From assembly GCA_018646625.1 (NCBI GenBank), contig JABGUJ010000003.1, forward strand, positions 268,355-332,354: a stretch of 64,000 nt of DNA, in the 5' to 3' direction. Positions 54,141-64,000 of the stretch are shown piece by piece. Position numbers and translations under genes: made by a program. This stretch comes from Candidatus Woesearchaeota archaeon (GTDB taxonomy: Archaea > Nanobdellota > Nanobdellia > Woesearchaeales > JABGUJ01). Each line of letters begins with the position of its first letter. The first letter of the stretch is position 1. A model generated the notes under the pieces. That model saw nothing but the letters and a program-made list of their open reading frames with translations. It ran no database searches and was not told the DNA's origin.

Positions 54141-54941
54141 ATGAATAATAAACTATTAGTAGTACTATTCGCAGTTGTAATTGTTCTGATGTATGGATGT
54201 ACTCAAACTCCAGCAACAGAACCTCAAGAAACAGTTTCCGCAGAAATACCTGCAGAACCTGCACCAACAGAAACAGCACCAGAAGAACCTGTTCAAGCAG
54301 AAGCAACTGGCGCTAAAGATGTTCTAAAATCATTAGTTGGATCTAAACCTGACTATCTAGTCAAGTATACATTCAGTACAATAAGTGGTGGAGAAGAATT
54401 AGCAGGAACTCAAGCTCACTATATCAAAGGCGAAAACTTCAGAACTGATTCAGAGATTAGCATCGACGGTCAGAAAATGGTCTCCGCAACATACGTTCTT
54501 GATTCAAAGTTATACACTTGCTCAAAAACAATGGGTAACTGGATGTGTATGGAATTCCCTCAAATGGACGGAGAAGATACATCAACATTCGATCCTAGAG
54601 CAACAAACGAAGACTTTGCTGAAGAACTAGATAGCTGGTTTGTAGAAGAACTTCCTGACAGAACCATTGCAGAAGAAACGGCTAAATGCTTCTCAACAAC
54701 AATGGCAGAAGTAGCCTCACAAGAAACAGAGGTTTGCTATAGTTCAGAAGGTGTGCCTTTATACATCGGACATGTAAATCCTGATGGATCATACACACTT
54801 GAAGCAATTGAGTTCTCTAGAACTGTAAGTGATTCTGATTTCGAACTTCCTGCAGAACCTGAAGATTTCCCTATAATGGGTATGGGTGGCGAAGGAATGA
54901 CAGAAGAAGAACTTCAAGCAATGGCTGAGCAATACAGCTAA
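54141..54941 (+). CDS. Lipoprotein of unknown function
   Basis: 266 aa with CAGGGGG 9 nt upstream. Lipobox LMYGC (Cys 20) is followed by a Pro/Glu/Thr-rich spacer (about 22-58) and a beta-rich domain (about 65-240) with four Cys that could pair (TCSK, MCME, KCFS, VCYS). The fold may resemble LolA/LppX-like barrel lipoproteins, but identity is too low to say. An exposed outer-surface location is likely. Confidence 0.75.
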   Translation: MNNKLLVVLFAVVIVLMYGCTQTPATEPQETVSAEIPAEPAPTETAPEEPVQAEATGAKDVLKSLVGSKPDYLVKYTFSTISGGEELAGTQAHYIKGENFRTDSEISIDGQKMVSATYVLDSKLYTCSKTMGNWMCMEFPQMDGEDTSTFDPRATNEDFAEELDSWFVEELPDRTIAEETAKCFSTTMAEVASQETEVCYSSEGVPLYIGHVNPDGSYTLEAIEFSRTVSDSDFELPAEPEDFPIMGMGGEGMTEEELQAMAEQYS

Positions 54942-55615
54942 CTTTTTCTTTTTTTAAATTCTATTTTATCTTCTAACAATACACCTTGATGCAATTCTAC
55001 AGGTCTCCACTTATCTTCTACCAACTTAGCTTCTAACCAATCAGCCAAATCATTAGGATTACCTATTGTAGCACTCAAAGCAATTATCTGTACGTTCTTC
55101 AAAAGATCTCTAAGAATTGTTAATAGTATCTCTAACGTCGGTCCTCTTGAAGCATCATTAAGCAAATGCACCTCATCCACTACAACAGTCGCAACATCCT
55201 TCAACCATTCAGCCCTATGTCTAATTAAACTATCAAGCTTTTCAGACGTACAGAATATAAGATCATTTTGCGCAATATACGGATCTGCAGAATCCAAATC
55301 ACCAATCGAAACCCCAACTTTAAGCAAATGACCATATCTTTGCTTCATTTCTTTATACTTCTCTGTCGCCAAAGCCTTCAAAGGAACAATATAGATGGCT
55401 TTCCCTTTTCTTTTTAGAATACCATCAATCATTGCCAGTTCCGCAACTAGAGTTTTACCTGACGCAGTCGGAGTACAAACCAAAAGATTTTCTCCATCAA
55501 ACAAACCTGCATCTATAGATTTCTCTTGAGAAGGTCTTAGTTCTTTGATACCTAACCCATCTAATACTTCATAGAATTGCGGTTCAATCTTAGTTTTTAG
55601 AGCGTCTAAATGCAT
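54938..55615 (-). CDS. Hel308/Ski2-like helicase fragment: RecA1 domain only
   Basis: 225 aa. Motifs Q (RPSQ), I (TPTASGKTLVAE), Ia (VPLKALA), Ib (TSEK), II (DEVHLL) and III (ALSATIGN) are all intact. The protein then stops in WRPVELHQGVL...KKRKS, just where the linker to RecA2 begins. A full Hel308 has about 700 residues with RecA2, winged helix and ratchet domains. The downstream DNA is the 3' end of the convergent lipoprotein gene, so no in-line remainder exists. Either a split gene with the second half elsewhere or a truncated copy. Confidence 0.88.
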   Translation of the reverse strand: MHLDALKTKIEPQFYEVLDGLGIKELRPSQEKSIDAGLFDGENLLVCTPTASGKTLVAELAMIDGILKRKGKAIYIVPLKALATEKYKEMKQRYGHLLKVGVSIGDLDSADPYIAQNDLIFCTSEKLDSLIRHRAEWLKDVATVVVDEVHLLNDASRGPTLEILLTILRDLLKNVQIIALSATIGNPNDLADWLEAKLVEDKWRPVELHQGVLLEDKIEFKKRKS

Positions 55616-55777
55616 AATTCAAAGGAAGAACATAGAAGTTGTTATGTCTTTCTATTAAGAAAAAGACGACGCAACAGAGAGTTACAACCAAACAGAGACC
55701 AATGAGCAGCCCCATTCAAAAAAGAAAAGTTAATAAATAAGCTAACACCTCAATAATAAACAAGGAGGGGCAGATTA

Positions 55778-55814
55778 TTTGCTAAGACAGCCAAAAAGAC
55801 CGGCGTTTAGCAAA
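55778..55814 (+). promoter_or_regulatory. Stem-loop hiding the TTG start of the short ORF
   Basis: TTTGCTAA (55778-55785) pairs perfectly with TTAGCAAA (55807-55814), with GCC/GGC inside. The TTG start (55779-55781) lies in the 5' arm. AAGGAGGGG (55762-55770) is just outside. A TTAATAAATA box (about 55728) would start transcription near 55755. Confidence 0.5.
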
Positions 55815-55838
55815 AAAAGGACCACTCTCGTCAGTTAA
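55779..55838 (+). CDS. Short basic peptide ORF (19 aa) heading the 55.9-61 kb cluster
   Basis: TTG start 8 nt after AAGGAGGGG, the best ribosome binding site in this part of the window. The product MLRQPKRPAFSKKRTTLVS is strongly basic. It ends 30 nt before the PLP enzyme gene. It may be a leader peptide, a small protein or a peptide substrate for the ATP-grasp ligase downstream. Ribosome binding site and promoter position support it; length and lack of homologues that I know of argue for caution. Confidence 0.4.
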   Translation: MLRQPKRPAFSKKRTTLVS

Positions 55839-55868
55839 ACCACAAAAGGAGCGTTATTTAAACCCAAA

Positions 55869-56837
55869 ATGAGAGTAAAAGGAATTCTGGATCTTATTGG
55901 CAACACGCCAACCGTAAAACTTGAGAAAATAATTCAACAAGAAGGTGTTGAGATATTTGCAAAGTTAGAAGGTCATAACCTAACAGGAAGCATGAAAGCA
56001 AGATCCGCATTAGGGATGATCGAAGCAGCAGAAGCTAGAGGAGAACTTACCCCTGGAAGAAGCACAATCATTGAATCCACATCAGGAAATCTAGGATATG
56101 CACTTGCCGCAATTGGCGGAGTAAAAGGATATAGAGTAATTCTAGTTTTAGATCCGAAAACTGATGATCTTAAAAGAAATATATTGAAAGGATACGGCGC
56201 CGAATTAGTTACAGTTACAGAATCAGATGAACACGGCGCATTCCAACCAACAAGAATTGCAAGAGTACAAGAAATGTTAGGAGAAACTCCTAATTCGTGG
56301 ACACCAAACCAATATCACAATCCAGACAATCTGGATGCACACTACAAAACAATGGGTCCTGAGATATTCGCAGATTTAGAAGGAAGAGTAGATGTGGTTG
56401 TTGGAGCAATTGGTACATGCGGTCATTTAGGAGGAGCTGCAAAATTCTTAATGGAACAAAATCCAGATCTAAGAGTAATTGGAGTAGAACCAGAAGGATC
56501 CGTATTATCTGGAGGAGAATTCTGTCCATACTTAATTCAAGGTCCAGGACTTAGCTTCAAACCATCAAATCTAGATTTAGGAGTTATAAGAGAAATAGTA
56601 AAAGTATCAGATAAAGACGCAATGTATGCTGCCAGAGAACTTGCAAGAAAAGAAGCAATACTATCAGGGAGCTCGGCAGGAAGTGTAATATATGCTACAA
56701 GACAGATTGCACCAGAACTTCCAGAAGGATCTAGAGTCGCAGTAATATTAGCAGATGGGGGATTCCGTTACGGAACCAATTTCTATGATGATAATTGGAT
56801 GGTAACACACGCAATGCAACCTCCGTCATCACAATAA
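55869..56837 (+). CDS. PLP-dependent beta-replacement enzyme (cysteine synthase/SbnA-like)
   Basis: 322 aa, fold type II PLP family. ILDLIGNTPTVKL opens the protein, the PLP lysine lies in LTGSMKARSA (about 44), the phosphate-proximal loop is ESTSGNLGYALA (about 75) and GTCGHLGGAAKF is the PLP phosphate site (about 180). S/GSSAGSV lies near the C-terminus. SGNLG (instead of SGNTG) and the DPK segment after it resemble SbnA-type enzymes, which make non-protein amino acids, more than housekeeping CysK. First full gene of a cluster with an ATP-grasp ligase. Confidence 0.87.
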   Translation: MRVKGILDLIGNTPTVKLEKIIQQEGVEIFAKLEGHNLTGSMKARSALGMIEAAEARGELTPGRSTIIESTSGNLGYALAAIGGVKGYRVILVLDPKTDDLKRNILKGYGAELVTVTESDEHGAFQPTRIARVQEMLGETPNSWTPNQYHNPDNLDAHYKTMGPEIFADLEGRVDVVVGAIGTCGHLGGAAKFLMEQNPDLRVIGVEPEGSVLSGGEFCPYLIQGPGLSFKPSNLDLGVIREIVKVSDKDAMYAARELARKEAILSGSSAGSVIYATRQIAPELPEGSRVAVILADGGFRYGTNFYDDNWMVTHAMQPPSSQ

Positions 56838-56853
56838 TCGTTGGGGAAATCAA

Positions 56854-57648
56854 ATGAGTACAAATCAAAACTTAGGGATAGTTCTAAGAGTAGACAATGT
56901 TCTAAAACCAGGAACATATGAAAACTTTAAAGCTATGATGGATGTGATAAACAGCAAAGGAGCTACTGCAGTAATTGACGTCACACCAAAATGGCATGGC
57001 ACCACAGACCATGATCCAGAATACGTCGCAGTCATCAAAAATCAACTCGACAAAGGTCACGTTCTTGCATTACATGGTGTCGAACACAGATGCAGAATTC
57101 TTCAAGAACACGAACACAAAGTTTCATGGTTACCAAGCGAAGATGAGTTTGATTGTAAAGACTATCACAGAATTCACGGCACAGATATTCCTATAGAAAT
57201 ACAAAGAGAATGGTTAAGAGAAGGTAATCAACTACTAGAAAAAATTCTAGGACAAAGAACCGATCTACTTATGCCTCCAGCACACGCATTTAATTCTAAT
57301 ACACTTGCCGCAATGAAAGAAGAAGGATTCGTTGCAACTTCAGATTACGGACGATGGGACGCAAGACCATATCAAAAAGATGGAATCTGGGTGCTACCTT
57401 TTGACTTTGAAGATTACATGAAAAACACCGATGAAGATGGTGGAAACGCAGAAGCCATCTTCAAAATGTATACTAAATATTTTGAAGCCAGCGTAAGACA
57501 ACAAGGTTTCTATGCGATGTTTACACACTGCGATTTTAGCGGAGAAGGAAACGCAAGTCCAGAAAGACTAAAGATATTAGATCGAATGATCACATATGCA
57601 CAAGATAAAGATCATAGATTCATAGACCCAAGAGAAATTTTAAGATGA
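56854..57648 (+). CDS. NodB-like/DUF2334 polysaccharide-deacetylase-fold protein
   Basis: 264 aa. The metal-site Asp is in LRVDNVLKPG (about 11) and the HxxxH motif in ALHGVEHR (about 72-79). MPPAHAFNSNTLAAMKEEGF and FTHCDF lie near the third and fourth strands. The fold is that of carbohydrate esterase 4/DUF2334; substrates may be amides other than chitin. It overlaps the ATP-grasp gene by 4 nt. Confidence 0.78.
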   Translation: MSTNQNLGIVLRVDNVLKPGTYENFKAMMDVINSKGATAVIDVTPKWHGTTDHDPEYVAVIKNQLDKGHVLALHGVEHRCRILQEHEHKVSWLPSEDEFDCKDYHRIHGTDIPIEIQREWLREGNQLLEKILGQRTDLLMPPAHAFNSNTLAAMKEEGFVATSDYGRWDARPYQKDGIWVLPFDFEDYMKNTDEDGGNAEAIFKMYTKYFEASVRQQGFYAMFTHCDFSGEGNASPERLKILDRMITYAQDKDHRFIDPREILR

Positions 57649-58922
57649 AAGCAGTAGGAAAAACACTAAGAGATATAATTAGTGAAGATGAGAAAGACCA
57701 AATCATTTTTGGGTATGAGATTCTTTCACAACCCGACCCAACCATCCTAACAAGAATTCCACACATAACACATCGAAATCAAGCCATTGCAACAATAGCA
57801 AAAGAAGGCGATATAGTACTTTTAAATCAACCAATAAATCAACAATATCAACAATGGCTAAGAGAAGTTGGTTTTGGAACTGACGCAATACACGAAGTTG
57901 AAACCGATGGACAAACTCCAATAACCGAACTAGTTACAGATCTCAGATTCAAAATCCCGTCACAAGAAGGAACAAGAATATATGTTCCAAGAATGGTTTC
58001 GGATACAGATCATGATGCCGCATCAGCACTTAACGCCGTCCTTTTTGGAGGAAATACAGACCTCGTTCTAAAGTATTACGATAAAGGTGAATTCAAAACT
58101 AGATGTCAAGAACTAGAAATTCCGGTTGTAGAATTTAGAGTTCTAGAGGCACCAAAAGGAATCAAGGTAAGTGCATTATCGGATGCGATAAGAGAAATAC
58201 TAGAGACAAGTGAAGGCGCCATCGTAAAAGCCATGACATCATCAGCAGGAGCTGATACTTACAGAGTTAACAAAGAAAACATAGCAGCAATAGCAGAAAC
58301 AGTTGTCAAAGAAGGTAAAACTCGAGTCATTGTAGAAGCTTTAGCAAAAGTAAGAAGAGAATATTCATCTCAGTGGGCAGTAGATCTAAAAGGAAATGTC
58401 AATTTAGTAGGCATCTGCAATATGCACGCAGATCAAAAAGGAAGCCACATAGGCAACACATACCCGACCCCACAAGGAGTATTAGCCACACTCACAAAAT
58501 ATTCACACAGAGTTGGAACCGACATGAGTGAACAAGGATATATTGGAAATTTTCAATTAGATTTATTTGAAACCGAACATGGTATTTTGATGAGCGAAAA
58601 CAATACAAGGATGAGCGGCTCTAGCATCGCATGGGACGTATTCCATAGACTAAACCACAGACACAAGAAAAAAGGAGTATTTATCTCAACAAAGTTTCAG
58701 GTTCCACCTAATTCTTTTGACTGTATTAAAGAAAGTTGTAGAGATATTATTTATACTGGAAGAGACTATAACTGTTTTTTCCCATACGATATTGGAGCCA
58801 TAGACATAACAGGACAATTTATGGGAGTAATCATTGCAGAAGATCAAGAAAAAGCTAAATCAATATTAAAAGAAATAGAACGGAAAGGAATCAAGAGCAG
58901 CATATCTTCAGAGTATTTATAA
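57645..58922 (+). CDS. ATP-grasp ligase, probably forming a peptide or amide bond
   Basis: 425 aa. A pre-ATP-grasp region (about 1-130) is followed by LNAVLFGGNTDLVLKYYDKGEFKTRCQELEIPVV (ATP-grasp entry, about 125-165), GAIVKAMTSSAGADTYRV (P-loop-like, about 195), VIVEALAK (hinge) and LDLFETEHGILMSENNTRMSGSSIAW (Mg2+ Glu/Asn, about 305-330). The pattern fits the D-Ala-D-Ala-ligase/peptide-ligase branch. Substrates cannot be read from sequence. Neighbours suggest joining of a PLP-derived amino acid to a carrier or peptide. Confidence 0.82.
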   Translation: MKAVGKTLRDIISEDEKDQIIFGYEILSQPDPTILTRIPHITHRNQAIATIAKEGDIVLLNQPINQQYQQWLREVGFGTDAIHEVETDGQTPITELVTDLRFKIPSQEGTRIYVPRMVSDTDHDAASALNAVLFGGNTDLVLKYYDKGEFKTRCQELEIPVVEFRVLEAPKGIKVSALSDAIREILETSEGAIVKAMTSSAGADTYRVNKENIAAIAETVVKEGKTRVIVEALAKVRREYSSQWAVDLKGNVNLVGICNMHADQKGSHIGNTYPTPQGVLATLTKYSHRVGTDMSEQGYIGNFQLDLFETEHGILMSENNTRMSGSSIAWDVFHRLNHRHKKKGVFISTKFQVPPNSFDCIKESCRDIIYTGRDYNCFFPYDIGAIDITGQFMGVIIAEDQEKAKSILKEIERKGIKSSISSEYL

Positions 58923-59653
58923 TGAAAATAATCGATTGCCATGCACATATAGGAAAAGAAGGAGATAAAAATATTGACTTGGCTAAAATAAAGATTCATC
59001 TTAAAAGAAATAAAATAAATAAAGTTGTGCTGTTTCCATTTATATCAGACACACTCACCCAAGATTCTTTAAAAATATTAGAACTATCAAAAAAAAATAA
59101 ATTCATAATACCTTTCATAAGATTTAATCCAAACACAATTACTAAAAAAGAATTAGAAAAATTACTAGATAATCCATTCAAAGGTGTAAAATTACACCCT
59201 CGAGCAGAGAAATTCAATCCACTAGACCAAAAATTCGACTGGATCTTCAAAGAAATACAGAAGCATAATATCCCCATACTATTTCACTGCAAATCATATC
59301 ATTTCGATCCTGATAGTCACCCTGAAAAAATACTCAAACTGGCAAAACGACATCCAAAACAGATATTTATCCTGGGTCACTTCGCAGGAGTCAACAAAGA
59401 ATTATTTAAAGAATATGTCAAACAAAAAAATATCTATGTTGAAACCTCTATTGATGTCACACCCAACGCATATCGTGAAGTTGTATTAAAATACGGATTC
59501 AAAAGACTTCTATTCGGAACCGATTTCCCGTATTCTTTTGGAGAGATAGAACTCATGAAGCTAAAGTTTGCCAATTTAGGAAAAGAGATGGAAGAGAGAA
59601 TTCTATACAAAAATGCAGAGAATCTATTAAATAAACAATCCAAGAACTTTTAA
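58922..59653 (+). CDS. Amidohydrolase (COG2159-like), copy 1
   Basis: 243 aa, TAATG overlap with the ATP-grasp gene. TIM-barrel metal motifs: DCHAHIG (HxH), GVKLHPRAEKF (Lys/His), PILFHCKSYHF (His), FILGHFAG (His) and FGTDFPYSFG (Asp). The family hydrolyses or decarboxylates small carboxylic substrates or amides. It is paralogous to the next gene over its full length. Confidence 0.88.
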   Translation: MKIIDCHAHIGKEGDKNIDLAKIKIHLKRNKINKVVLFPFISDTLTQDSLKILELSKKNKFIIPFIRFNPNTITKKELEKLLDNPFKGVKLHPRAEKFNPLDQKFDWIFKEIQKHNIPILFHCKSYHFDPDSHPEKILKLAKRHPKQIFILGHFAGVNKELFKEYVKQKNIYVETSIDVTPNAYREVVLKYGFKRLLFGTDFPYSFGEIELMKLKFANLGKEMEERILYKNAENLLNKQSKNF

Positions 59654-59680
59654 AACAGCAAGACACACAGAATACCAAGA

Positions 59681-60412
59681 ATGATAATAGACATACACAC
59701 ACACATAGGCAAAGACGTAAGCGACCCAAAGTTAGAAAAATACAGCAAAGACCAACTTCTAGCAGACATGGACAAAAACCAAATACAGCACTCCGCAGTA
59801 TTCCCATTCAACAGACCTGACGAAGATCTTCTAAAAGAATCATTAAGAATCCTAGAGTTATCAAAAGAAAACAAAAAAATAATACCATTTCTAAGATTTA
59901 ATCCAAACACAATAACTAAAGAAGAGCTAAACAAACTATTAAGCAAAGGTTTCAAAGGAGTAAAACTCCACCCAAGAGCTCAAAACTTTGTATTCAACAA
60001 AATAGAATATGATCGGATCTATGAAATAATAGAAAAACACAAAGTTCCATTATTAATCCACACAAGAGCCGCAACCATGGAAACTAGCGATCCTGCTTAT
60101 GCAATAGACATCGCACAAAGATTCCCAAACCTAAAGATTATAGCAGCACACTTCTTTGGAGGGGGCCTAAACAACGATCTCCTAAACCAAGTAGCAAAAC
60201 ACAAAAACCTATACGTAGACACATCAGTATATTCCAGCATTATGGAAATGAGAAGAGTTGTAAGAACTTACGATCGGCTAATATATGGCAGTGACGCCCC
60301 TTACAGCGACCAAGAAGTCGAAATCCTAAAAATAAAGAAAGCAAAGCTACCTAAGAAGATAGAAGACAAAATACTCTTCAAAAACGCTTTAGAAGTGCTA
60401 AACCTAAAGTAA
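59681..60412 (+). CDS. Amidohydrolase (COG2159-like), copy 2
   Basis: 243 aa, same length as copy 1. Motifs DIHTHIG, GVKLHPRAQNF, PLLIHTRA, IIAAHFFGG and YGSDAPYSDQE keep all metal ligands, so both copies should be active. The difference after the third His (HTRAATME against HCKSYHFD) falls in the substrate loop and suggests different substrates. Confidence 0.88.
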   Translation: MIIDIHTHIGKDVSDPKLEKYSKDQLLADMDKNQIQHSAVFPFNRPDEDLLKESLRILELSKENKKIIPFLRFNPNTITKEELNKLLSKGFKGVKLHPRAQNFVFNKIEYDRIYEIIEKHKVPLLIHTRAATMETSDPAYAIDIAQRFPNLKIIAAHFFGGGLNNDLLNQVAKHKNLYVDTSVYSSIMEMRRVVRTYDRLIYGSDAPYSDQEVEILKIKKAKLPKKIEDKILFKNALEVLNLK

Positions 60413-60443
60413 CATTTTTAAACCAAAAAAATAACCATAAACT

Positions 60444-61049
60444 ATGCAACCGTACAAGCAATCAACAAAATTCACCTGTTCAATTGCATCATTAATGGCA
60501 ATTCTCAATCATTACGATAAATCCGTTCAACTAAATCGAGAAACCGAGCTCGAATTATGGCAAGAAACGGTTGTTCTACCAACAAGAAGAAGCTCATTAT
60601 TCGCAATGGCAATGGTTGCCAAAGAATACAATGTAGATTTTAAAGTAATAGTAGAAGATACCAGCTTTCTATTCCCGGAATATAGATTCAAGAAATACCG
60701 AAAATTCGAAGTAGAACTGGCAGAAGATAACGAAAAGAGATTTCTAAGATTAGCACAAAAAAAGAACATAAACATAGAAGAAAGAGCGATCTCTTTAGAA
60801 GAAATAAAGACCTTAGTACAAGAAGGAAAGAAAGTATTAGTGAGATTAAACATAGGAGTACTAAGAAACACTAAAGCAAACAGAAGCAAAGCACATTACA
60901 TTGCAATTGACGATTACTACGACAACATATTTGTTGTAATGGACCCAAGAATTGGAATAAAAAAGATAAAAGAAAACAAAATGAAAGAAGCATTTGAAAC
61001 TGTTAAAGACAAATGTAAAAGAGATCACAGAATGATTATCTTTGGTTAA
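60444..61049 (+). CDS. Papain-like C39-type cysteine peptidase domain protein
   Basis: 201 aa. A TATA-like TTTTTAAACC (about 60415) and no ribosome binding site suggest a separate leaderless transcript. The catalytic pattern is QSTKFTCSIASLMAILNHY (Gln and Cys, about 6-24), KAHYIAIDDYYDNIFVVMDPRIG (His at about 153, Asp further on). Peptidase C39 domains cleave after double-Gly leaders in peptide exporters; stand-alone ones also occur. Its place beside an ATP-grasp ligase fits peptide processing, by inference. Confidence 0.78.
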   Translation: MQPYKQSTKFTCSIASLMAILNHYDKSVQLNRETELELWQETVVLPTRRSSLFAMAMVAKEYNVDFKVIVEDTSFLFPEYRFKKYRKFEVELAEDNEKRFLRLAQKKNINIEERAISLEEIKTLVQEGKKVLVRLNIGVLRNTKANRSKAHYIAIDDYYDNIFVVMDPRIGIKKIKENKMKEAFETVKDKCKRDHRMIIFG

Positions 61050-61612
61050 AAACCACGACGTTTCTTCAAGAATTCTATTAAACCATCAGGCAACACAGGC
61101 TTACCATTCTTCAAAACATATCTATAAGGAAAGATCTGACTTTCATTTTTTCCAGTTTCAATCTCAATTTCATCAATAAACTTAATCTCAGAAAACTTAG
61201 CACCATCCGCAATCATCTTAACTACCAAAACGGCAGTATTTGTCGACATTTGCACAGGCCCTAAATTACGAACAGAACACTTAATATTATCAGACAGAGC
61301 AGTCTTAGTTCTACCATCCATCGGATGATTACCCAACACGCCACCGAAAATCATATAATCAAACTTTTTACAATCAGCAGTCGTTAACACTTTAGACGCC
61401 TGAGGATCAAGAACACAAACATTCTTCAGTTTTTGAGTAATTACGCTCTTTATACCGACCCTTCCAATAGTTTCCAATTTAGAAGCAGCAACCGTACCTT
61501 TAACATTTGTAAAAATGATATTCTTCTTACCAACGGTGTCGGAGGCATGCTTATACTCTAACCAACACCACTTATACAATCTACCATCCAAATGTTCTAA
61601 TATATATTTCAT
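61046..61612 (-). CDS. SPOUT-fold methyltransferase, Sfm1/COG2428 family
   Basis: 188 aa. KYILEHLDGRLYKWCWLEYKH is the typical start of this family, followed by NIIFTNVKG, VCVLDPQASK, FDYMIFGGVLGNHPMDGRTKTAL (SPOUT knot, SAM site) and RNLGPVQMSTNTAVLV. The yeast relative Sfm1 methylates an arginine of ribosomal protein Rps3; archaeal members were annotated as RNA methyltransferases. The TATA box CTTAAATAA at about 61635 is 25 nt upstream. Its tail overlaps the convergent C39-like gene by 4 nt. Confidence 0.88.
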   Translation of the reverse strand: MKYILEHLDGRLYKWCWLEYKHASDTVGKKNIIFTNVKGTVAASKLETIGRVGIKSVITQKLKNVCVLDPQASKVLTTADCKKFDYMIFGGVLGNHPMDGRTKTALSDNIKCSVRNLGPVQMSTNTAVLVVKMIADGAKFSEIKFIDEIEIETGKNESQIFPYRYVLKNGKPVLPDGLIEFLKKRRGF

Positions 61613-61651: not shown

Positions 61652-61960
61652 CTATACTGGAACAACCCTAAAACCAACTTTCTCAGGAATTATAACAAGT
61701 TCTTTAACCTTATCAAGCTTTTCCTTTTTCACAAGATCCTTAGGAATACGCATACCATAACTCTCACCCCATTTAGTGAGCTTAACATTATACTTTCTGA
61801 GTTCTCTATACTCTTTGGCTACGCACTCAAGTTGCTTCATAGAAAGAATCTCCTCCCCACAAGAGTTACAAACAAAATAAGAATATTTAACACCTTCAGG
61901 AGTTTTAGAAACTTTCAGAGCCATAGACTTGCTACACACCGGACATGATTTCTTCTTCAT
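61652..61960 (-). CDS. MqsA-like zinc-finger antitoxin with a SpoVT/AbrB-type domain
   Basis: 102 aa. N-terminal zinc finger CPVCSKSM...CNSCGEE (about 6-37), a helical linker, and a C-terminal AbrB-type swapped-hairpin motif (KLTKWGESYGMRIPKDLVKKEKL, about 60-82). This domain order is usual for MqsA/YgiT-like antitoxins of DUF4258 toxins. Coupled to the upstream toxin gene by a 4-nt overlap. Confidence 0.83.
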   Translation of the reverse strand: MKKKSCPVCSKSMALKVSKTPEGVKYSYFVCNSCGEEILSMKQLECVAKEYRELRKYNVKLTKWGESYGMRIPKDLVKKEKLDKVKELVIIPEKVGFRVVPV

Positions 61961-62190
61961 TTTCTTGTTACGGTTATTACCTTAATAGTTAAGCCACAAA
62001 CTTGGCCAACACATTGTATTGAAAAGTCACCATAAGACCTTACAAACTTGACATAGTTCTTTCCTACAACAACTCGCTTCCCAGACTTGATTGTAGCTTC
62101 AACCATATCTGGATAAATTCTTCTCTGCAATGCACGCTTAAAAGCGTGATGCGAGATATCAATTGTGTAGTCTTCAACATCCATCTTCAC
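61957..62190 (-). CDS. DUF4258 toxin-like protein
   Basis: 77 aa from GTG at 62190; ATG at 62184 is an equally possible start. The family pattern is clear: SHHAFKRALQRRIYPDMVEATIKSGKR, then a beta sheet and VITVTRK at the end. DUF4258 proteins are RelE-like toxin candidates paired with zinc-finger antitoxins. Toxin-first gene order. Expression is likely autoregulated through the palindrome just upstream. Confidence 0.82.
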   Translation of the reverse strand: MKMDVEDYTIDISHHAFKRALQRRIYPDMVEATIKSGKRVVVGKNYVKFVRSYGDFSIQCVGQVCGLTIKVITVTRK

Positions 62191-62457: not shown

Positions 62458-64000
62458 TCAACTGCGCACTATCAAACTTTCATTCATACACTTAGGTTTC
62501 TTCAAACCCATCAATTCCAAAATAGTTGGAGCCACATAAGCAATACTTTTGCCTTTCTTTAACTTATATTTATTCTCAGAAACAATAATAAACGGAACTT
62601 TATTAGTAGTATGAGAAGTTTGATGCAGTCCACTCATTTCTTCAGCATTACCATGATCAGCAGTAATAACAACAGAACCGCCTTTCTTCACAAAAGCCTT
62701 CACAACCCTACCTAAACATTTATCCACAGTTTCACAAGCAGATACTGCTGGAGAAATCATACCGGTATGACCCACCATATCGGCATTTGCAAAATTTAAA
62801 ACAACCAGAGAATAATTACGCGACTTCAATCGTTTCAATAAAGCAGTAGTTAATTTATTTGCAGACATTGCAGGAGTTTTATCATAAGTCCCAACTTTAG
62901 GAGAATTAACCATAATTCTATCTTCACCAACATGAGGTTTCTCCGTACCGCCATTAAAAAAGAACGTAACGTGAGGATATTTCTCAGTTTCTGCCACACG
63001 CAACTGCTTCAATCCCTGAGATGCAATCACAGAACCTAAAGTATGTTTAGGAATAGAAGGAGGAAACACAACAGGCGCTTTGATCTTCTTATCATACTGT
63101 GTTAAACAAGTAAAGTAAAGATTACGCAATTTCTTAGGACGTTTAAACTTGTTAAACTTACCATCAACAAAGGCACGAGTTATTTCTCTAGCCCGATCTG
63201 AACGAAAGTTAAAGAACACAACAGAATCTCCATCCTTTATCGCACCATCTTCTATAACGGTTGGAGCAACAAATTCATCAGTTTCACCGCGCGAATAAGC
63301 TTCATGTAACGCACTTATAGGATCAGAACTAAAGAAAATAAACTCCCCATCCAGCTTTCTAACACAATGCTTACCCCTCTCAGACAAGTTACATTTATTC
63401 AAATAATCAGAATGATTAGTAACTAAAGATGTATATGCTCTAAACTCTCGAGTCCAACGATTATCTCGATCCATTCCATAAAATCGACCCATAATCGAAG
63501 CAAACTTAGCATCCAACTTTAATTTTTTAATCTCTTTTAGAACACGACGAATATATTTCTCCGCACACTTCGGAGGAACATCTCTCCCGTCGAGTAAAGC
63601 ATGAATAAACACTCGCTTTACCTTCTTCTGCTTAGCCATCTTAAGTAAAGCTAAGAGATGGGTACTGTGACTATGCACATTACCATCGCTAAGCAATCCC
63701 AAAAAATGCATATCGCCTTTAGTCTTCTTACTATGACTAAAAGCTTTGTTTAAAACAGAATTTCTAAAAAATGCTCCACTTTTGATTGAATCATTAATTC
63801 TAATCAAATCTTGTTCTATCAATCGCCCAGCACCTAAATGCATATGTCCAACTTCAGAATTCCCAATAACTGGACCTTTCGGCAAACCTACAAACCCATC
63901 ATGAGCATACAACACCGTATTAGAGTTTTGTTTCCTTAAAGAATCTAAGACAGGTGTCTTTGCACGAGATATAGCATTATACTTTCCCGATCTCTTAAGA
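62458..64000 (-). CDS. gpmI: 2,3-bisphosphoglycerate-independent phosphoglycerate mutase (5' end outside the window)
   Basis: About 514 residues are visible and the reading frame stays open to the window edge, so the first 10-20 residues are missing; GTG at 63915 is not the start. The enzyme interconverts 3- and 2-phosphoglycerate in glycolysis. Motifs: YNAISRAKTP near the edge, GNSEVGHMHLGAGR (phosphorylated Ser), HALLDGRDVPPK, GRFYGMDRDNRW, FNFRSDRAREI, NFANADMVGHTG and ITADHGNAEEM (Mn ligands). This is the bacterial-type iPGM; many archaea have the divergent ApgM instead. Confidence 0.94.
   Translation of the reverse strand, partial: LKRSGKYNAISRAKTPVLDSLRKQNSNTVLYAHDGFVGLPKGPVIGNSEVGHMHLGAGRLIEQDLIRINDSIKSGAFFRNSVLNKAFSHSKKTKGDMHFLGLLSDGNVHSHSTHLLALLKMAKQKKVKRVFIHALLDGRDVPPKCAEKYIRRVLKEIKKLKLDAKFASIMGRFYGMDRDNRWTREFRAYTSLVTNHSDYLNKCNLSERGKHCVRKLDGEFIFFSSDPISALHEAYSRGETDEFVAPTVIEDGAIKDGDSVVFFNFRSDRAREITRAFVDGKFNKFKRPKKLRNLYFTCLTQYDKKIKAPVVFPPSIPKHTLGSVIASQGLKQLRVAETEKYPHVTFFFNGGTEKPHVGEDRIMVNSPKVGTYDKTPAMSANKLTTALLKRLKSRNYSLVVLNFANADMVGHTGMISPAVSACETVDKCLGRVVKAFVKKGGSVVITADHGNAEEMSGLHQTSHTTNKVPFIIVSENKYKLKKGKSIAYVAPTILELMGLKKPKCMNESLIVRS

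Follow-up and report, generated by a model that had tools for sequence, protein, structure and literature searches.

A compact archaeal operon with an SbnA-like enzyme and a predicted amide ligase lies at a conserved site with exchangeable cargo

The window analysed here is a stretch of 64,000 nucleotides (G000:C4:268355-332354) from a host genome of 1.57 Mb in four contigs, whose gene content, together with the many families of its order, suggests Woesearchaeales. It contains an operon of six plus-strand genes, which the listing of open reading frames confirmed. These genes, the short ORF at the operon head and the flanking genes are as follows.

54938 to 55615, minus strand: flanking gene, N-terminal half of a Hel308-like helicase, 225 aa (Pfam); the same flank is seen at loci of another genome family, f70
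55779 to 55838, plus strand: basic ORF of 19 codons with a TTG start, MLRQPKRPAFSKKRTTLVS, and a Shine-Dalgarno-like site; it may be a leader peptide and is probably not conserved
55869 to 56837, plus strand: SbnA-like fold-type-II PLP enzyme, 322 aa (PALP; TIGR03945 as best NCBIfam; tree), predicted to carry out beta-substitution of O-phosphoserine
56854 to 57648, plus strand: NodB-like/DUF2334 deacetylase, 264 aa (Pfam; metal ligands intact)
57645 to 58922, plus strand: predicted ATP-grasp amide or peptide ligase, 425 aa (Pfam; structure model; PDB fold matches)
58922 to 59653, plus strand: amidohydrolase 1 (AH1), Amidohydro_2 (Pfam; metal ligands intact)
59681 to 60412, plus strand: amidohydrolase 2 (AH2), Amidohydro_2 (Pfam), a tandem copy 44% identical to AH1
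60444 to 61049, plus strand: DUF3335 C39-like papain-fold protein, 201 aa (Pfam), with C12, H151 and D167 present
62458 to 63915, minus strand: flanking gene, phosphoglycerate mutase (iPGM); the full ORF runs beyond the listed one (L143), and enolase lies further out

The intergenic gaps are, in order, 16, -4, -1, 27 and 31 nt. Thus, the compact gene order and the overlaps of 4 and 1 nt described in the sequence-only reading are real. All Pfam matches were above the cut-off (PALP, DUF2334/Polysacc_deac_1, ATP-grasp, Amidohydro_2 twice and DUF3335, 'Peptidase_C39 like'). The hydrolases had been credited with intact metal sites, and this was confirmed by a motif scan for the positions, with residues taken from the translations. 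The ligands are D14 and H74-x3-H78 in the NodB-like deacetylase, H7-x-H9, H122, H153 and D201 in AH1, and H6-x-H8, H127, H157 and D205 in AH2. The GC content is 0.305 in AH1 vs 0.397 in the PLP gene. A convergent SFM1-like (SPOUT) gene at 61046-61612 on the minus strand overlaps the stop codon of the C39-like gene by 4 nt. It is followed on the same strand, at 61652-62190, by small overlapping genes for a DUF4258 protein (just below the cut-off) and a MazE/AbrB-like protein, a layout that resembles a toxin-antitoxin pair.

For the PLP enzyme, the best NCBIfam match was TIGR03945 (SbnA), with 313.1 bits below the cut-off of 349.95. Among PDB entries the top scores belonged to cystathionine beta-synthases (CBS) and SbnA scored lower. 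Therefore, these scores alone did not decide the assignment. In a tree of 35 sequences, the window enzyme and its relative from genome G183 grouped with S. aureus SbnA, Streptomyces SbnA and five others (100/100). CysK and CBS fell apart from this group, including all 20 sequences sampled from the same order. The phosphoserine-binding residues of SbnA are Arg132, Tyr152 and Ser185 (PMC12414870). Aligned to these, the window enzyme has R129 and Y149 at the first two positions and G182 at Ser185, where a Streptomyces SbnA also has glycine. The arginine is kept on the SbnA side of the tree and absent in CysKs. The proposed SbnA-like synthase was thus borne out, and the enzyme resembles SbnA of staphyloferrin B synthesis in its grouping, in the Arg132 and Tyr152 positions and in a TSGNLG loop. 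A reading as CysK was ruled out by the tree, by this loop in place of TSGNTG and by the neighbours; neither CysE nor CysRS adjoins the PLP gene, unlike at the CysK loci of relatives. The sequence-only reading had named as evidence against itself a PLP enzyme that is the only cysteine synthase of the genome and clusters with CysK. The tree gave SbnA and not CysK, yet the gene is the sole CysK/SbnA-type gene of the host; its second PALP gene resembles threonine synthase. In contrast to the SbnA/SbnB system, the host has no SbnB partner. The SbnB/OCD family (PF02423) is absent from both G000 and G183, which excludes canonical diaminopropionate synthesis via SbnA/SbnB.

Several plasmid loci carry related genes. 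On two Nostoc plasmids (L064, L072) an SbnA-like gene adjoins an RppAB-type two-component system, and in L064 the gene after it matches an ANKH-like transporter family. A Streptomyces plasmid (L070) combines a CysK-type gene with serine acetyltransferase, three ATP-grasp genes and an NRPS. Its enzyme groups as true CysK-type, and L070 was therefore kept as a loose parallel only.

Sequence searches with the ATP-grasp enzyme gave weak matches. It matches PF02222 and not the RimK/LysX family PF08443 in Pfam. An AlphaFold model built from 11 aligned sequences reached a pLDDT of 87.2; an earlier model from two sequences (pLDDT 43) was discarded. The best PDB folds were 8ynd (a Streptomyces ATP-grasp peptide ligase), 7r8q (S. 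aureus SAOUHSC_02373, which we take to be LdmS), 8yi6 (BesA) and 3wvq/3wvr (presumably PGM1). The overall fold is common to 8ynd/8ynq, 7r8q, 8yi6, 3wvq/3wvr and the window ligase, with a TM of 0.63-0.77 over the protein, at only 14-16% identity. In contrast to PGM1, the window ligase lacks the Pfam PGM1-type domains. Because the best folds of the model are such ligases, the comparison supports a predicted amino-acid or peptide ligase, as had been proposed. A viral or plasmid origin was rejected: relatives of the ligase were found in no phages, plasmids or viral contigs, and relatives of the PLP enzyme in no viral contigs. A viral fold search with the ligase returned generic ATP-grasps only. 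Exact-pattern scans of genome contigs, a method that reaches close relatives only, gave none. A literature search for ATP-grasp in Woesearchaeota found nothing. Radical SAM genes occur near distant ligase relatives at L090, L009 and L092.

The six families had been expected to co-occur as a set, and this was not the case, as the full set is present in one genome only. Of the 353 genomes in the order, only G183 encodes an enzyme closely related to the PLP enzyme (68% identical). There, the PLP gene is adjoined by a ligase relative (30-32% identical) and then an M20 peptidase. This pair of PLP and ATP-grasp genes is the only part of the set that recurs, in this one other genome of the order. The genes of more distant ligase relatives in G428 and G483 are likewise followed by an M20-type peptidase gene, and in G472 a ligase homologue occurs with Asparaginase_2, C39-like, possible GCS2-like and GAT-II genes. 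A search of 108 other genomes gave no relative of the NodB gene. For the amidohydrolases, the better relatives outside the host genome were compared. In G048 the relative is in one operon with GCS2 and a GSH-S-type ATP-grasp, in G148 it is near GCS2 and a Ddl-like ATP-grasp, in G094 near GCS2, and in G203 it stands alone. In summary, the six-gene set is not a travelling unit; its modules recur.

Of the 353 genomes, 58 carry the C39-like gene, and 36 of its loci were examined. At many of these it adjoins an amide ligase, of the ATP-grasp or GCS2 type, as well as a hydrolase for amides or peptides. A GCS2-like cluster was found at 11 loci of family f62, at a median distance of 222 bp from the C39-like gene (some GCS2-like members score below Pfam thresholds), and GAT-II likewise at 11. 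Other loci combine the gene with ATP-grasp, octopine dehydrogenase and LD-carboxypeptidase (L125), with ATP-grasp, octopine dehydrogenase and Peptidase_C26 (L126), with ATP-grasp and a class-I amidotransferase (L127) or with an OCD-family gene (L151). No ligase was nearby at several loci, for example in G499, G183 and G203. Two loci (L152, L156) carry D-aminopeptidase M55 and GAT-II, and L152 also an Asp/Glu racemase, a content that suggests amides containing D-amino acids. We then counted Pfam families among the 133 nearest neighbours of the C39-like gene. The 25 commonest included GAT-II (11), GCS2 (9), Peptidase_C26 (4) and YheCD ATP-grasp (3). None of these four is among the commonest 25 families (at least two members each) of 109 CysK-locus proteins, where CysRS and hexapeptide transferases are found instead. 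This control was picked after the pattern had emerged and both tallies cover the commonest families only, and we therefore take the count as supporting evidence, short of a formal test. The C39-like and amidohydrolase genes thus repeatedly adjoin amide ligases elsewhere, which the sequence-only reading did not contain.

The C39-like protein had been read as a trimming protease. It is a single-domain protein lacking an ABC-transporter fusion, and its triad is intact (C12, H151, D167). The triad is complete in only 8 of the 36 proteins, namely that of the window and seven from f70. Most other relatives have Thr or Ser for the cysteine and/or Asn, Lys or Gln for the histidine; E35, W39, P46, R134 and D167 are invariant. 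Therefore, the label 'protease' is unsafe and trimming is doubtful. Binding is as likely a role as cleavage. The DUF3335 literature search found only a general papain-fold classification.

In the window and in nine f70 genomes, the C39-like gene has iPGM beside it or, on contigs that reach far enough, enolase and a short helicase gene. The genes beside it differ almost every time:

Window: the SbnA-like set
G238: GSH-S-like ATP-grasp, octopine dehydrogenase and S66
G174: octopine dehydrogenase, B12-binding protein, Ddl-like ATP-grasp and C26
G501: YheCD-like ATP-grasp and GATase (iPGM outside the examined piece)
G496: GATase (piece ends at a contig end)
G498: OCD (piece ends at a contig end)
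G207: glycosyltransferase and two PIG-L-like genes
G497: GFO/IDH and a PIG-L-like gene
G500: AstE-like gene
G499: none

Besides G496 and G498, further pieces of the site end at contig ends. The tree of the C39-like protein tracks the genome families (f62 100/100, f70 95/86), which fits vertical inheritance, and places the window protein on the f70 side with modest support (90/85). The locus is thus a conserved site with exchangeable cargo, a finding absent from the sequence-only reading. At the helicase flank, the C-terminal half of the Hel308-like gene is found elsewhere on this contig, at about 47 kb of G000:C4 and thus some 275 kb from the N-terminal half. The f70 genomes have short helicase ORFs of similar length at the same site.

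We somewhat favour the reading that the operon makes and turns over a small amide-linked metabolite and is one of several exchangeable cargoes at this site. It draws on gene order, families, the phylogeny and residues of the SbnA-like enzyme, the ligase fold, the recurring pair, ligase linkage and the conserved position with varying cargo. Against it speak the strongly unequal divergence of the two genes from their G183 counterparts (PLP enzyme vs ligase, given above), the confinement of the full set to one genome, the missing SbnB and the C39 loci with no ligase nearby. Alternatively, unrelated enzymes may have gathered by chance at a site that tolerates integration, with no single operon product; this would match the lack of conservation of the set, the isolated NodB gene, the differing GC content and the varying cargo. 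We consider it improbable, as it leaves aside the overlaps of 4 and 1 nt, the recurrence of the PLP-ligase pair and the association with ligases that the C39-like and the amidohydrolase genes show independently. Slightly better placed, though still unlikely, is a pathway to a low-molecular-weight thiol. Here the PLP enzyme would be the cysteine synthase of the genome, using phosphoserine and sulfide, and the ligase would couple cysteine to a partner by the logic of glutathione or bacillithiol, with NodB as the deacetylase. The status of the PLP gene as the only one of its type, the retained phosphoserine-binding residues and the glutathione-like set of GCS2, GSH-S-type ATP-grasp and GAT-II at related C39 loci agree with this. 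Its position in the SbnA group with a TSGNLG loop, the missing CysE and CysRS neighbours and the absence of GCS2 from the host genome argue against it.

The 19-residue basic ORF at the operon head exists as described, with TTG at 55779 and AAGGAGGGG just before it. When the intergenic stretch was shuffled by dinucleotides, 53% of the shuffles contained an ORF of this size and 2% contained one that also had a Shine-Dalgarno-like site. The latter value and the presence of 3wvq/3wvr ('ATP grasp protein') among the ligase folds would suit a ribosomal peptide route, in which the product of this ORF is the substrate, receives a non-protein amino acid from the ligase as in pheganomycin and is trimmed by the C39-like protein. 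Reading by eye, no counterpart of the ORF was apparent upstream of the PLP-ligase pair in G183, no precursor-like ORF was identified elsewhere, and the triad of the C39-like protein is degenerate in most relatives. Such a route is very improbable.

Precedent for an amide metabolite comes from predicted amidoligase systems with ATP-grasp and DUF3335 (Iyer et al. 2009, Mol Biosyst 5:1636, as presented in PMC10318531 and PMC8939145). According to these citing papers, an ATP-grasp or GCS2-type ligase, a DUF3335 papain-like protein and amide or peptide hydrolases share one neighbourhood, and in the window, too, ATP-grasp ligase and DUF3335 protein are in one operon. Compared with the systems as described there, the window adds the SbnA-like PLP enzyme, NodB, the tandem amidohydrolases and the archaeal exchangeable-cargo site. 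A GNAT domain, a feature of those systems, was found neither in the six proteins nor in those scanned from the flanks. The dapdiamide pathway combines Dap synthesis with the ATP-grasp enzyme DdaF. By analogy, the window may follow a similar logic of SbnA-type enzyme and ATP-grasp dipeptide ligase, but it lacks an SbnB-type or a fumaramoyl-forming enzyme.

For an amide-linked metabolite, the SbnA-like enzyme would beta-substitute O-phospho-L-serine with an amine nucleophile to give an amino acid of the 2,3-diaminopropionate type. Because SbnB is missing, the adduct as such, or a different beta-substituted alanine, would serve as the building block. The ATP-grasp enzyme would activate a carboxylate as acyl phosphate and couple it with an amine to yield a dipeptide-like amide. 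Removal of N-acyl groups or hydrolysis of the amide could then fall to NodB and both amidohydrolases. The C39-like protein may bind the product or act on it. It could be a peptidase in this operon, but such activity is not a conserved property of the family. Thus, of the biosynthetic cluster first proposed, the general form stands, a predicted amide-linked metabolite with an unusual amino acid, and the conserved six-gene cluster and its trimming protease do not. A wider proposal is more doubtful: the site may be a fixed slot in this archaeal order, where the C39-like protein stays, vertically inherited and often without catalytic residues, and sets of amino-acid maker, amide ligase and matching hydrolase are swapped in. 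The protein would then be the shared partner of different amide metabolites, as binder, sensor or processing factor.

If the favoured reading is true, archaea with small genomes, usually called metabolically minimal, would keep a diversified small-molecule chemistry based on amide ligases and hydrolases that can replace one another. Such loci are marked by a conserved papain-fold protein, catalytically degenerate in most cases, which would make further ones easy to find. This also raises the question of what the protein recognises.
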